Assembly: GCA_028710885.1 (NCBI GenBank)
Contig: JAQTTG010000001.1
Location: 372,001-436,000, forward strand
Reading direction: 5' to 3'
Source: Sulfuricurvum sp.
GTDB lineage: Bacteria > Campylobacterota > Campylobacteria > Campylobacterales > Sulfurimonadaceae
Length of the DNA: 64,000 nucleotides
Shown here: in pieces, positions 2,283-7,128 of the stretch
Position numbering within the stretch: position 1 is the first letter of the stretch
How the letters are laid out: the number at the start of each line of letters is the position of its first letter
Position numbers and translations under genes: made by a program
Notes under the pieces: model-generated
The model's input: only the letters and a program-made list of their open reading frames with translations
What the model was told of the DNA's origin: nothing
Database searches by the model: none

Positions 2283-3134
2283 CTAAAGCGTAATTTGTGT
2301 CCCTACCCCATCTGATGTAAAAAGCTCTAGCAAAATTGCATGTTCAATCCTACCGTCAATAATGTGAGCTTTTTTTACACCACCATCCACGGCTTCCAGA
2401 CAGGCGTCTACTTTTGGCACCATTCCCCCATGAATCGTCCCATTTGCTTTTAACGATTCAACTTGAACTTCGCTGAGTGTCGAGAGAAGTTCTTTATGAT
2501 TATTCAATACGCCCGGAGTATCGGTCATAAAAATCACTTTACACGCGCCAATAGCACTAGCAATCGCCGATGCGGCCAAATCTGCATTGATGTTATAACC
2601 AGGATGTCCTACGATATTATCGGCTCCGATTGGTGCGATAACAGGGATAAAACCTTCACGTAATAAATTATGGATGACATCTGATTTAACACTTTCAACC
2701 CGTCCGGTAAGACCAAATTTTGCTTCATCTTTAGGTTTTGCCATCAAAAAATGAGCATCTTTTCCGCTGATACCGATTGCCTTGGCACCGTGAGAATTTA
2801 ATAATGATGTAATCTCTTTATTGATCTCGCCGCTTAGAACCATCTCAACAATTCGCATAACTTCAGGAGTACTGACTCTCTCACCATCGATAAACTCAGT
2901 TGGAATTTTCAAATCGGAAAGAAGCTGAGAGATACGGCTTCCTCCACCATGAACAATCACTACTTTTACCCCTACCAAATGAAGCAATACAATATCTTGA
3001 GCAAATTTCGCTTTGAGTTCATCAGAGCTTTGTGCAGAACCGCCATATTTGATAACGACAATTTCATCACGAAACTCTTTGATGAATGGCATCGCATCCA
3101 TCAAAGTTTTAACTGTATCAATCTTACGTTGCAT
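2283..3134 (-). CDS. argB: Acetylglutamate kinase
   Basis: Phosphorylates N-acetylglutamate with ATP, second step of arginine synthesis. Length 283 is typical. The amino-acid-kinase fold shows at VIKYGGSAQ (about 27-35), HGGGSRIS (about 63-70), the substrate loop NINADLAASAIA and the C-terminal IHGGMVPKV nucleotide site. Its start overlaps the end of lpxK by 11 bases, so the two are probably cotranscribed although their pathways differ. argD, a later step of the same pathway, lies elsewhere in the window at 22.6-23.8 kb. Stops 14 bases from the convergent helicase stop; a weak GC hairpin (AGGGG/CCCCT) sits in that gap. Confidence 0.97.
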   Translation of the reverse strand: MQRKIDTVKTLMDAMPFIKEFRDEIVVIKYGGSAQSSDELKAKFAQDIVLLHLVGVKVVIVHGGGSRISQLLSDLKIPTEFIDGERVSTPEVMRIVEMVLSGEINKEITSLLNSHGAKAIGISGKDAHFLMAKPKDEAKFGLTGRVESVKSDVIHNLLREGFIPVIAPIGADNIVGHPGYNINADLAASAIASAIGACKVIFMTDTPGVLNNHKELLSTLSEVQVESLKANGTIHGGMVPKVDACLEAVDGGVKKAHIIDGRIEHAILLELFTSDGVGTQITL

Positions 3135-4032
3135 TTACATATTCCTTGACCGTGGTAATCAATGTCTCATTCAGTTCTATCGAAAGTTCCATACATGAGA
3201 TGTTGATATTAAAAGATGACATTTTAACAAAGTCTTTCTGAGTTACCAACAAACTTGTTGCACCGGTACGTTCTATAATTGCTTCAAGCTCACCTTGAGT
3301 AAAAAAATGGTGATCTTCAAAATAGATTTTTTCACTCACTTCAGGCAAATAAGGATCAAGCCTTTCAGGTCGTGCAATGGCTGTCACTAAAACCATTTTT
3401 TCACTCGGATTTCGTATGATGACTGATCGAAAAAATGATTTTCCCTCATACAACATCTCCACACATTTATTACCCCATAAACGCTCTCGATAAGGACCTG
3501 AGGGGAGACAATAATGATTTGGAGTAGCCACATCAATCACCAGATCGAGCTTTTCAATAGCATGTTTTCCATATCCATCATCGAGAAATACGACTTCACA
3601 TCCCATCGATACAGCTTCTGCAATTCCCCGTTCTCGAATCTCACTTACAATTACTGTAGCATTTGTGAGATTTTGTGCATACAGCATCGCTTCATCTCCA
3701 CTGTGCACTACATCACATAGTATGGTAGATTTATCTTTTACAACGACCATACCGTGACTTTTACGTCCATACCCACGTAAAACAATTGCAGGTTTATCAA
3801 AATGTTTTGCCAATTCAATTACAACCGGTGTTTTCCCGCTTCCGCCTACCGTCAAATTACCGATGCTAATAACTGGGATACCCATATTTTTAGGTTTACT
3901 TCGATGATATCGTATGAGTGCAATCAAACAATAAAGCCAGCTCAGCGGTAACAGGAGAAAAGAGAGAATTTTTTGGCTCAGCGAGGGGTGATAAAGATAC
4001 TGTTCACCCCATTGAACCCAAAAACGTTTCAA
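3124..4032 (-). CDS. lpxK: Tetraacyldisaccharide 4'-kinase
   Basis: Phosphorylates the 4' position of the lipid A disaccharide at the inner face of the inner membrane. The 302-residue product has an N-terminal hydrophobic stretch (about 20-42, LSFLLLPLSWLYCLIALI) and the shifted Walker A typical of LpxK, ISIGNLTVGGSGKTP (about 56-70). FLDDGYG is the conserved catalytic-site region (near 150). Start overlaps the upstream DegT-like gene by four bases (ATGA) and its end overlaps argB, so it sits in the middle of a tight minus-strand operon. nadE-lpxK-thrC proximity is known from Campylobacter. Confidence 0.95.
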   Translation of the reverse strand: MKRFWVQWGEQYLYHPSLSQKILSFLLLPLSWLYCLIALIRYHRSKPKNMGIPVISIGNLTVGGSGKTPVVIELAKHFDKPAIVLRGYGRKSHGMVVVKDKSTILCDVVHSGDEAMLYAQNLTNATVIVSEIRERGIAEAVSMGCEVVFLDDGYGKHAIEKLDLVIDVATPNHYCLPSGPYRERLWGNKCVEMLYEGKSFFRSVIIRNPSEKMVLVTAIARPERLDPYLPEVSEKIYFEDHHFFTQGELEAIIERTGATSLLVTQKDFVKMSSFNINISCMELSIELNETLITTVKEYVNAT

Positions 4033-5147
4033 ACGCGTGTTGAAGCTACATCCAAAATTGCATCACAAATCTCTTCAACTTCATCATCGCTTAAAGCAGC
4101 GTAATTTGGGATGGAAAGAACTTGCTGATAGTTACGTAACGCAATTGGAAAATCATTAACGCGCAATGCATATTTAGATTTATAATAGCTGAGTAAATGG
4201 AGTGGAATATAGTGTAAACCACATTCGATACCACGGAATGCCAATTCTCTTGCAAAAGAATCTCTATTTTTATCCACTTTAATAATATACAATGAATACG
4301 AATGCTCATCATTTGCTATAGGTAATTTGATATGCGGTGCATCCGCCAAACGCTCGTTAAAAATTTCGGCAATAGCACGCTGACGTTCGATATTTTCATC
4401 TTGTTTTTCCAGCTGTACCAAAATGGTCGCTGCATCAAGCGGACTCATCATGTATTGACTTCCAATATCTGTGACATCATAAATATATCCCAAAGATTCT
4501 TCATCAACTACCATAGCATGATTACGAAGCAGTTTTGCTCTCTCCATAATCTCTTCGTCATCGCAAACAAGCATTCCGCCATTGCACACATTACGTCGTA
4601 GATGCGGACTAAAATTAAAACAAGTAATATCAGCTCCAGTTGAACCGATTTTTTTGCCTTGATAGATTGCACCTAATGCATCCGATGCATCTTCAATAAT
4701 TTTAACATCATACAATCGAGCTATGCTGTAAAGACGATCTAACTCAACACTTTGCCCAGCAACATGAGAAACAATCACTGCTTTTAGCTTTTTAGACTTA
4801 TTTTCAGCCAAGTATGCTTCAAGTTTACCTAAATCAATTGTAAAAGTATCCGGATTAATATCGATAAATATAGGTTCAGCATCAAAATGACGCACCACTT
4901 CCGGAACTGATGGATAAGCATTAATGGAACATAATACTTTATCGCCACGTTTTAAATCAATCGCCAACATCGCTAAATGCAATGCAGCTGTACCATGTGA
5001 AGTTGCGAGAGCGTATGAAGCACCGACATACGATTCAAATGCTGATTCTAAATCTGCAATAATATTTGGTGCTTCTCCATCAAATACTTCATCAATTTTT
5101 TCTCGTTCATCACCACCGACTTCGACACGATAAAATGGGATACTCAT
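4029..5147 (-). CDS. DegT/DnrJ/EryC1-fold protein lacking the PLP lysine
   Basis: A 372-residue aspartate-aminotransferase-fold protein of the DegT/DnrJ/EryC1/StrS sugar aminotransferase family. The phosphate-binding SHGTAALHLA (50-59) and the cofactor aspartate in EDASDALGA (D153) are kept. The usual block F-x-F-H-P-x-K-x-x-x-x-x-E-G-G is here FNFSPHLRRNVCNGG (177-191): the Schiff-base lysine column is Leu183, with His182 next to it and no Lys in the block. I re-read the codons on the minus strand and they support this. Known lysine-less relatives (ColD dehydratase) use His at that column. So this may be a dehydratase-like, non-transaminating or regulatory member. Ends by a four-base overlap into lpxK, hinting at a cell-surface sugar role. 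Function unproven. Confidence 0.85.
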   Translation of the reverse strand: MSIPFYRVEVGGDEREKIDEVFDGEAPNIIADLESAFESYVGASYALATSHGTAALHLAMLAIDLKRGDKVLCSINAYPSVPEVVRHFDAEPIFIDINPDTFTIDLGKLEAYLAENKSKKLKAVIVSHVAGQSVELDRLYSIARLYDVKIIEDASDALGAIYQGKKIGSTGADITCFNFSPHLRRNVCNGGMLVCDDEEIMERAKLLRNHAMVVDEESLGYIYDVTDIGSQYMMSPLDAATILVQLEKQDENIERQRAIAEIFNERLADAPHIKLPIANDEHSYSLYIIKVDKNRDSFARELAFRGIECGLHYIPLHLLSYYKSKYALRVNDFPIALRNYQQVLSIPNYAALSDDEVEEICDAILDVASTRV

Positions 5148-5162: not shown

Positions 5163-5969
5163 TTATAAAGTAATATCTCTAGGATAATTAAAATCATGGT
5201 TGACCGTTCTAGAGGTCAATTTAGCTATTACAGGCATACGACGTTTAAACTGATTTCGGTATATCTTTTCGATAATCATATCGACCAATAGAGGATTTTC
5301 TCCATCTGCGATCATCTCTTCACGAGTATGGCGATCTTCAACGTAACGTTTTAATACATGATCAAGCTCACTATAGGGAAACCCTATTTCCTGCTCATCA
5401 CTCTGCCCTGCCCATAAATCAGCAGAAGGTGCTTTAGTGATAATCGATTCAGGAACCCCTAAATATCGTGCCAGTTCAAACACTTCAGTTTTATACAAAT
5501 CACCGATAGGATTGATTGCGCTGGCCAAATCACCAAACAATGTCCCATAACCAAGCATCAATTCACTTTTATTACTTGTCCCTAATACCAATGCACCTTC
5601 TCGGGCAGAAAGGTCGAATAAAGTTACCATTCGTAATCTAGCAGAGAGGTTTCCTACTCGCAGCGGTGACATCTCCGCAGTCTCATAAGCACGAAGTAAC
5701 GGTTCGATACTATGAGTTTCAAATCTAAGACCGAATACACGGCACAGTTCATCAGCATCATCAAGAGAATTTTGTGATGAATAGTGTGATGGCATCTTTA
5801 CACACAATACATCATTTCCGAATGCACGATGGGCCAATACGGCAACTACAGCGGAGTCTAGCCCTCCACTTAGTCCTAAAACAACCTTTTTAAGACCTGT
5901 TTTAAGAACTTCATCGCTTAAAAAACCGGTCAAATATTGGCTGATAAGATCGTATTTTCTCACCTGCAA
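5163..5969 (-). CDS. nadE: NH3-dependent NAD+ synthetase
   Basis: Amidates nicotinate adenine dinucleotide to NAD+ with ATP and ammonia. At 268 residues it is the short form without a glutaminase domain. The PP-loop signature GLSGGLDSAV lies at about 33-42, and the NaAD/ATP site GTSNKSELMLGYGTLFGD at about 150-167. Sits 15 bases upstream of the DegT-like gene and is probably the first gene of the nadE - degT-like - lpxK - argB run. The 5' side (5970-6023) is short and AT-rich. Confidence 0.96.
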   Translation of the reverse strand: MQVRKYDLISQYLTGFLSDEVLKTGLKKVVLGLSGGLDSAVVAVLAHRAFGNDVLCVKMPSHYSSQNSLDDADELCRVFGLRFETHSIEPLLRAYETAEMSPLRVGNLSARLRMVTLFDLSAREGALVLGTSNKSELMLGYGTLFGDLASAINPIGDLYKTEVFELARYLGVPESIITKAPSADLWAGQSDEQEIGFPYSELDHVLKRYVEDRHTREEMIADGENPLLVDMIIEKIYRNQFKRRMPVIAKLTSRTVNHDFNYPRDITL

Positions 5970-6023: not shown

Positions 6024-6836
6024 TCAACACTTTGTAAACGAAATTTTTTCCAACTCATCTGTATCAAATCCAGCTAGACGTCTCGCATCACAATTTATTG
6101 CAACTTTTCGAGGAAAACTCATCGGATAGTGTTTTTCGATAATCTCAAAATAGATTGATCTCTCTAAACCTGATCGTTTGCATCCCTCTTCAAACCATCG
6201 ATCCCCTTTACGTACATGATCAATCTCTTCCTCCAAAATCACATAAAGCGCAGAAATGATTTTTTGGATCATAGCGTCATGACGAAAAGAATCGAGTTTT
6301 CGTAAAATTTGAGGAGTTGCATCCAATCCGTTGGCTTCAAGATAACGCGGTACAACTGCCATCCTCTCTACCAGGTTTAATGTCCTCATAGAAGCTTCAA
6401 AAAGTGCATCATGTACAGGAAATGATCCATAAAAGCTCCCCAATTCTTTTAATAACCCCTCGATCATCTCGAAATGGCGCACTTCATCATCGGCAACAAC
6501 GAGCCAATCATTTTCAAATTCCTCGCCACAATCACGGAAACGGTACACCGCATCAAGCGCCAAATCGATGGCACTGTATTCGATATGGGCAATCGCATGG
6601 AGGAGTAAAATTTGTCCGTGAGGAGTATTAAGCTTTGTACGACGAGGAACCTCTTTGGGATCGATGATCGTACAATGATCGCGATACGACGGATAATCAA
6701 AAACGATCAAAGAGGTCGTGGCATCACGCGTAATTTCACCGCGACGATAGAGATCAAAAAATGTTCTAAAAAGGGCAATCTTCTCAGTGGGAGCAGATGT
6801 GGTTAAAAGGGTTTCAAGAGTGCTATAGAGTTCCAT
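6024..6836 (-). CDS. DUF455 ferritin-like protein
   Basis: A 270-residue all-helical protein of the DUF455 ferritin-like family. Pairs of Glu and His suited to a di-iron site are visible: AIAHIEYSAIDLALD, VADDEVRHFEMIEGLL and LEEEIDHVRKGDRWF, i.e. repeated E-x-x-H helices. Biochemical role is not established; some relatives are linked to tRNA or hydroxylation chemistry, which I cannot confirm. The start is set at MELYSTLE because a perfect minus-strand TATAAT (6849-6844) ends seven bases before this ATG, so transcription would begin at the codon itself. Longer in-frame starts at 6845 and 6881 lie on or beyond this promoter. Confidence 0.8.
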   Translation of the reverse strand: MELYSTLETLLTTSAPTEKIALFRTFFDLYRRGEITRDATTSLIVFDYPSYRDHCTIIDPKEVPRRTKLNTPHGQILLLHAIAHIEYSAIDLALDAVYRFRDCGEEFENDWLVVADDEVRHFEMIEGLLKELGSFYGSFPVHDALFEASMRTLNLVERMAVVPRYLEANGLDATPQILRKLDSFRHDAMIQKIISALYVILEEEIDHVRKGDRWFEEGCKRSGLERSIYFEIIEKHYPMSFPRKVAINCDARRLAGFDTDELEKISFTKC

Positions 6837-6843
6837 AAAAGCC

Positions 6844-6858
6844 ATTATATCGTATACT
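6844..6858. promoter_or_regulatory. Overlapping divergent -10 boxes, leaderless starts
   Basis: Minus strand TATAAT (complement of 6844-6849) ends seven bases before the ATG at 6836. Plus strand TATACT (6853-6858) ends six bases before the ATG at 6865. Neither start has a Shine-Dalgarno sequence at the right distance. Both genes therefore look leaderless, with the two promoters back to back inside about 15 bases. Confidence 0.5.
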
Positions 6859-6864
6859 CTCCTT

Positions 6865-7128
6865 ATGAAATCATCCCTCAAAGCCTATAGCCTCTACATT
6901 CTCAAATGCAGTGACAATACCTACTATACGGGGATTGCCGTCGATGTAGAAAAACGGCTAAATGAGCACAATACCTCCGACAAAGGAGCCAAATACACCC
7001 GTTCTCGCCGTCCACTCACCTTGATGTATACGGAAATGTGTGTTGACAAAAGTACCGCATTGAAACGGGAACTCGCTATCAAAAAGATGAAGCGATCTGA
7101 CAAGGAGGCACTATGGAGTTGTGGATAA
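6865..7128 (+). CDS. GIY-YIG nuclease superfamily protein (UPF0213 type)
   Basis: Small single-domain GIY-YIG protein of 87 residues. The motif is YILKCSDNTYYTGIA (10-24), followed by the catalytic-type Arg in DVEKRLNEHN and a conserved KGAKYTRSRRP segment with a Glu in KRELAIKKMKR. Relatives such as YhbQ are DNA-nicking or repair-associated; the cell role is unclear. Its end overlaps the next gene by 16 bases. Probable leaderless start with TATACT ending six bases upstream. Divergent from the ferritin-like gene. Confidence 0.88.
   Translation: MKSSLKAYSLYILKCSDNTYYTGIAVDVEKRLNEHNTSDKGAKYTRSRRPLTLMYTEMCVDKSTALKRELAIKKMKRSDKEALWSCG

Follow-up and report, generated by a model that had tools for sequence, protein, structure and literature searches.

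Proteins of the PLP fold can be conserved after losing the Schiff-base lysine, as is exemplified by SPTLC1, the lysine-less, non-catalytic partner of SPTLC2. Within the DegT fold, the NDP-sugar 3-dehydratases ColD and E1 also lack this lysine and carry a catalytic His in its place (PMC8987622, in the available part of its text). The roles of the catalytic residues referred to below are those given in the available part of the Spr1654 paper (PMC5936713), which further describes, for both ArnB and Spr1654, a flexible region that becomes ordered upon ligand binding. A search of the open-access literature recovered, among the matches listed, no paper on a lysine-less DegT/lpxK family as judged by title or abstract opening.

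We analyzed a 64,000-nucleotide stretch of Sulfuricurvum sp. DNA (here, the window), in which a DegT-like gene lies immediately before lpxK (Table 1). Its product matches the DegT fold type I profile (PF01041; 275.9 bits), and its closest named relatives are Sulfuricurvum records. The best NCBIfam model is that of PseC (TIGR03588), with a score of 264.3 bits that lies under the cut-off of 423.5, and the ArnB equivalog model (NF008658) gives 196.7 bits against a cut-off of 631. The window's genome encodes five other full-length DegT proteins, all on other contigs, among which a separate PseC (L001; 465.5 bits) and an RfbH (L002) score above the respective cut-offs. An AlphaFold model of the monomer, built with 53 sequences, has a mean pLDDT of 88.8 and a pTM of 0.88. 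Structure comparisons with this model recovered perosamine synthase, ArnB, and PseC at Z scores of about 45, a likeness that leaves room for other families; for ArnB (PDB code 1mdo), Z is 44.5 over 352 aligned residues, with an rmsd of 2.3 and 29% identity.

Table 1. Features of the lpxK locus (coordinates are positions in the window)
Feature	Position	Strand	Basis
argB, downstream of lpxK	2283..3134	-	
lpxK, tetraacyldisaccharide 4'-kinase	3124..4032	-	NF001892, 387 bits (cut-off 327)
Lysine-less DegT/ArnB-fold protein (putative pseudo-aminotransferase), 372 aa	4029..5147	-	PF01041; AlphaFold; structure matches
Residues 294-326, NRDSFAREL...HYIPLHLLSYYKSKY, strongly conserved C-terminal part	4170..4268	-	Conservation
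Flexible loop, residues 211-229, with conserved Y221, Y223, and D224	4461..4517	-	Low pLDDT; conservation
Block FNFSPHLRRNVCNGG, residues 177-191, in which N178, S180, L183, and N189 replace phosphate Ser, donor His, Lys, and Glu	4575..4619	-	
Codon CTA, Leu183, Schiff-base lysine column	4599..4601	-	Alignments with structures, paralogs, and family profile
Asp153, retained residue that pairs with the ring nitrogen (N1) of the cofactor	4689..4691	-	Asp in 79/86
K119-K120-L121-K122, basic segment starting strand 121-127	4782..4793	-	Conservation
R86-H87-F88-D89, conserved segment before strand 91-95	4881..4892	-	Conservation
K66-R67-G68-D69-K70, basic segment conserved ahead of strand 70-74	4938..4952	-	Conservation; strand from AlphaFold
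nadE, NAD synthase, most frequent upstream neighbor	5163..5969	-	Profile match and locus counts
DUF455 (PF04305), directly upstream at 27/164 loci tested on that side	6024..6881	-	

The family set was assembled from 192 rows, of which 157 were left once fragments of <340 aa and duplicates had been dropped; three of these were paralogs, and the addition of ten rows gave 164 family rows, from which 86 representatives with <80% mutual identity were drawn. As a control we used 31 paralogs from the same phylum, consisting of the 28 of 47 listed paralog places that have a locus, together with L001, L003, and L004. This control omits the RfbH-type paralogs L002 and L006 of the window's genome, whose best score is to RfbH and whose lysine column holds His; with them included, it would read Lys in 31 and His in 2 of 33.

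A first-pass annotation of this DNA had called the protein a DegT-family homolog without its PLP lysine, with Leu183 standing in the lysine column. Comparisons with PDB sequences by phmmer, with paralogs by MAFFT, and of the family profile with ArnB all agree on this column. Since the lysines closest to Leu183 are K165/K166 and K205, local realignment provides no Lys. We also considered whether K184 could form the Schiff base after a shift of register and rejected this, as the window has R184 and Lys occupies this column in only 40/86 representatives. Column 183 is Lys in 8/86 family representatives against 31/31 control paralogs and His in none of the 86. Within the genus, it is Leu at 30/30 loci (the window and 29 congeneric genomes; L009-L038), and in 80 named contigs (L039-L118) it is Leu in 63, Met in 14, Lys in 2, and Arg in 1. 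A sequencing error, which the same annotation had named as a possible refutation, is therefore ruled out, and the alignment of orthologs that it had proposed shows the loss of the lysine to be widespread.

Five of the eight Lys-bearing representatives (L108, L118, L196, L259, and L264) fall within one clade of seven, so that the Lys looks regained rather than kept, possibly without catalytic meaning. As all eight also lack His, Gln, or Glu at position 156, we disfavor the view that they are surviving enzymes. In this clade, which includes records named Nitratiruptor, the Lys at column 183 stands in the motif FSFNPHK, with Arg in close relatives.

Other residues of the catalytic pocket were lost together with the lysine. 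The O3' His/Gln of column 156 is found in 5/86 family representatives against 28/31 control paralogs (Asp156 in the window), the phosphate Ser of column 178 in 51/86 against 31/31 (Asn in the window), the donor-site His or aromatic residue of column 180 (His185 of ArnB) in 4/86 against 30/31 (Ser180), and the Glu/Asp of the GEGG motif in column 189 in 2/86 against 30/31 (Asn189). The window protein has thereby lost five pocket residues (His/Gln156, Ser178, His180, Lys183, and Glu189) and retains T53, Y78, D153, G190-G191, H312, and Y313. Across the family, the phosphate Thr/Ser (T53) is kept in 80/86, the ring-stacking residue (78) in 81/86 if His is counted and in 60/86 if it is not, and Gly191 in 83/86, and the sugar-side cis His-Tyr pair (H312-Y313) is present as His in 74/86 and as Tyr/Phe in all 86. 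All nine tested residues from T53 to G191 are intact in 0/86 family representatives, compared with 26/31 control paralogs. Among distant members, D153 is lost in 7/86 and G190 is changed in 30/86, in an alignment whose lysine block is uncertain for the most diverged rows (L171 and L174-L178). The earlier observation that the cofactor Asp and the Gly-Gly remain in the window thus stands; the broader statement that the pocket was retained holds only in part, because the O3', donor-site, and GEGG residues are gone too. N or R occurs at position 233 in 9/86 family representatives against 27/31 control paralogs; we withdrew N231 and R233 as diagnostic losses because ArnB and the Lys-bearing sister described below have K231/N233.

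The family is further distinguished by conserved columns, of which the basic ones are assigned no function in the catalytic site as described in the available part of PMC5936713. Basic residues occur at positions 66, 67, and 70 in 86, 86, and 85 of the 86 representatives, compared with 9, 10, and 4 of the 31 controls. R86 is present in 85/86 (a basic residue in 0/31 controls), F88 in 84/86, and D89 in 85/86 (1/31 controls). Positions 119, 120, and 122 are basic in 83, 85, and 86 of 86 against 9, 18, and 25 of 31; basic residues in columns 120 and 122 are thus common among paralogs too, and the patch is partly shared. In the AlphaFold model, all three groups precede or begin strands and hence lie at the N-terminal strand ends, whereas strand 149-153 bears the cofactor Asp at its C-terminal end. 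We take strands 70-74, 91-95, and 121-127 to be adjacent in the fold, in which case the secondary structure of the monomer model would place the three groups on one basic face. The C-terminal part is also nearly invariant, with R295, D296, P315, and K325 in 86/86, N294 in 84/86, and Y321 in 85/86. Residues 211-215 and 218-229 have pLDDT values of <50, and the loop to which they belong contains Y221 (84/86), Y223 (86/86, and Tyr in 20/31 controls as well), and D224 (82/86). By analogy, this loop may correspond in place to the region of ArnB and Spr1654 that orders with ligand.

Gene neighborhoods were evaluated at loci with at least 500 bases present downstream and a match reaching residue 340. 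In the window, the TTG start of lpxK overlaps the stop of the DegT-like gene by 4 bases. lpxK lies directly downstream on the same strand at 76/76 named and 89/89 unnamed loci, i.e., at 165/165 loci representing 154 distinct sequences, in two sets that share some genomes and include the window. The upstream gene varies, being nadE at 61, a DUF455 gene at 11, and another gene at 3 of 75 named loci, and nadE at 63, a DUF455 gene at 16, and another gene at 10 of 89 unnamed loci. DUF455, a family of unknown function, accompanies the operon at many loci. A profile of 21 orthologs recovered a relative at E <= 1e-100 in 250/397 genomes of the phylum and 51/68 genera, the named records including Sulfuricurvum, Sulfurimonas, Sulfurospirillum, Hydrogenimonas, and Nitratiruptor. 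The genome count is a lower bound, as diverged copies fall below the threshold: among 20 such genomes checked, G068 and G421 have one directly before lpxK, and a third diverged copy is found in G172 (L252). Presence in this many genera and the constant adjacency to lpxK indicate that the Leu183 protein is no local accident.

A quick tree built from 117 rows, with block 174-195 left out, places the 86 family rows on one side of a branch with an SH-aLRT support of 100, and the distribution of Lys and not-Lys on this tree requires at least four changes. A more careful tree of 67 rows recovers the family branch at 100/100 and joins to it, at 98/85, two Lys-bearing ArnB-like proteins, L266 (1988-3130) and L267 (1939-3099); these are the closest Lys-bearing relatives found and apparently the sister of the family, provided that the root lies among the controls chosen as the outgroup. 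The family profile scores them at 342 and 333 bits, respectively, against a highest value of 271 among 28 control loci scored, and L266 matches the ArnB structure 1mdo with 300 bits. They share a Y-D/E-x-V-D-x-G-x-K-Y region with the family; unlike it, they retain the lysine, H156, S178, and E189 and are not beside lpxK. Both are instead located in sugar (glycan) clusters, with a Bac_transf neighbor in each case and a Polysacc_synt_2 neighbor for L266. A protein of the L266 type was found in 2/121 genomes at E <= 1e-110, the genome of L267 being absent among the matches listed.

Among solved structures, ArnB also gives the highest score with the family profile (212 bits). The cofactor N1 Asp, the phosphate Thr, and the sugar-side His are common to ArnB and the window protein; the latter differs in lacking the Schiff-base Lys, the O3' His/Gln, the phosphate Ser, the donor-site His, and the GEGG Glu, and its family differs in having the conserved basic patch. 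In comparisons with nine congeners, dN of the gene ranges from 0.055 to 0.156 and is below that of lpxK in 9/9; dN/dS is 0.019 to 0.061 in the 6/9 comparisons where it is computable, with dS saturated.

We give about an even chance to an explanation in which the protein is a non-catalytic, ArnB-descended pseudo-aminotransferase without PLP chemistry that has been kept in the lpxK operon and tunes or scaffolds the LpxK step. Its pseudoenzyme part is well supported by the alignments, and a new, non-enzymatic job beside lpxK is probable for the lysine-less family; the link to LpxK itself is a best guess from gene order. According to this explanation, an ArnB-like UDP-sugar aminotransferase ancestor would have abandoned PLP chemistry ahead of the divergence of the sampled families, with the gene kept thereafter under purifying selection. 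The protein, presumably a homodimer, would still bind a sugar ligand, either a UDP-sugar or a sugar-phosphate, on the His-Tyr/C-terminal side that it retains; such a ligand is plausible because the pocket keeps its sugar side and a closing loop is also kept, and loop 211-229 would order over it. The conserved basic face would then dock on an acidic partner, for which the constant adjacency makes LpxK or lipid A phosphates, i.e., lipid A intermediates at the membrane, the best guess, and this docking could tune or scaffold the 4'-kinase step of lipid A synthesis. Binding of both LpxK and the ligand by the pseudoenzyme is thus a prediction. Counting against the partnership, some lineages lack the gene and there is no matching signature in LpxK: no LpxK columns were found that track the presence of the partner beyond phylogeny. 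Two candidate columns, I159 and D163, were rejected, as they follow phylogeny and Helicobacteraceae-like rows (f14) with the partner resemble those without.

The retention of T53, an aromatic residue or His at 78, D153, and G191 in most representatives, and of T53, Y78, D153, and the Gly-Gly in the window itself, would allow cofactor binding without a Schiff base; the titles of PDB entries 4oca, 3nys, and 4ztc likewise indicate that Lys-to-Ala aminotransferase mutants can hold PLP or an external aldimine. The protein might then still be an enzyme that depends on a cofactor but has changed its chemistry: like ColD and E1, it would use free PMP, with another acid-base group, such as H182 (present in 46/86) or, in relatives, K184. 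We consider this improbable, since the His that defines ColD-like chemistry is absent from column 183 in all 86 representatives, H182 is replaced in 40/86 and column 184 is Lys in 40/86 only, and the phosphate Ser, D153, and G190 are themselves lost or changed in some representatives. Of the two alternatives put forward by the first-pass annotation, the comparison with ColD breaks down at this His, and the evidence favors the non-enzymatic role next to lpxK. That catalytic residues are lost could also suggest a decaying pseudogene or an error, and nothing else does; the absence of internal stops in any listed row, the genus-wide Leu, the low dN/dS, and the near-invariant columns refute this and leave it virtually no credence.

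Two further readings accept a non-catalytic protein and give it other roles. By analogy with SPTLC1 and SPTLC2, it may be a non-catalytic subunit in a heterodimer with a Lys-bearing DegT paralog. The family resembles SPTLC1 in being both conserved and lysine-less, and the genome offers five candidate partners in its other DegT proteins. In this fold, moreover, the second subunit completes the active sites (available parts of PMC8987622 and PMC5936713). These five genes, however, lie on other contigs, and the neighborhood scans, which covered only the window's own genes, revealed no constant partner; such a pairing seems to us a long shot. More room must be given to a regulator that binds a ligand or nucleic acid and is merely co-operonic with lpxK, for instance sensing UDP-sugars or binding RNA or membrane lipid through the basic face. 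Conserved basic columns without a described catalytic role and upstream neighbors (nadE and DUF455) without an evident tie to lipid A would agree with it, but the lpxK neighbor is constant at all 165 loci while the upstream gene changes, and we regard this reading as possible yet rather doubtful. A dedicated lipid A regulator, which would use the retired site to sense a UDP-sugar or a precursor of lipid A and would act on LpxK via the basic face, is a bolder form of the pseudo-aminotransferase explanation that we offer tentatively, as a minority possibility; we know of no comparable control point of outer-membrane assembly in other bacteria.

Homology (PF01041, with PseC as the best model) would give the protein an aminotransferase name that probably misstates its activity. 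If the link to LpxK is true, an unrecognized protein takes part in one of the late steps of lipid A synthesis in Campylobacterota. The family also offers a natural series from enzyme to pseudoenzyme, running from the Lys-bearing sister through the lysine-less family and its more decayed pockets to lineages without the gene.

No match to the pseudoenzyme at 1e-100 was found in 147/397 genomes, while LpxK itself is matched in 396/397. At 18 lpxK loci that were inspected and from which the pseudoenzyme gene is missing, the gene directly before lpxK is nadE in 13 cases, a DUF455 gene in 2, and another gene in 3. The sole genome of the 397 without an LpxK match (G258, rated 99% complete) also has no strong match to the pseudoenzyme, so that the locus may be absent from the assembly only. 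In one genome without a syntenic pseudoenzyme, the LpxK frame (L247, 3938-5734) is about 599 aa long and has a C-terminal extension; the LpxK match ends at residue 335, and no second Pfam family was found in the extension. Finally, two genomes of one genus (L249 and L250; f6 g60) have the gene order DUF455-lpxK-argB, with neither nadE nor the pseudoenzyme gene at the locus.
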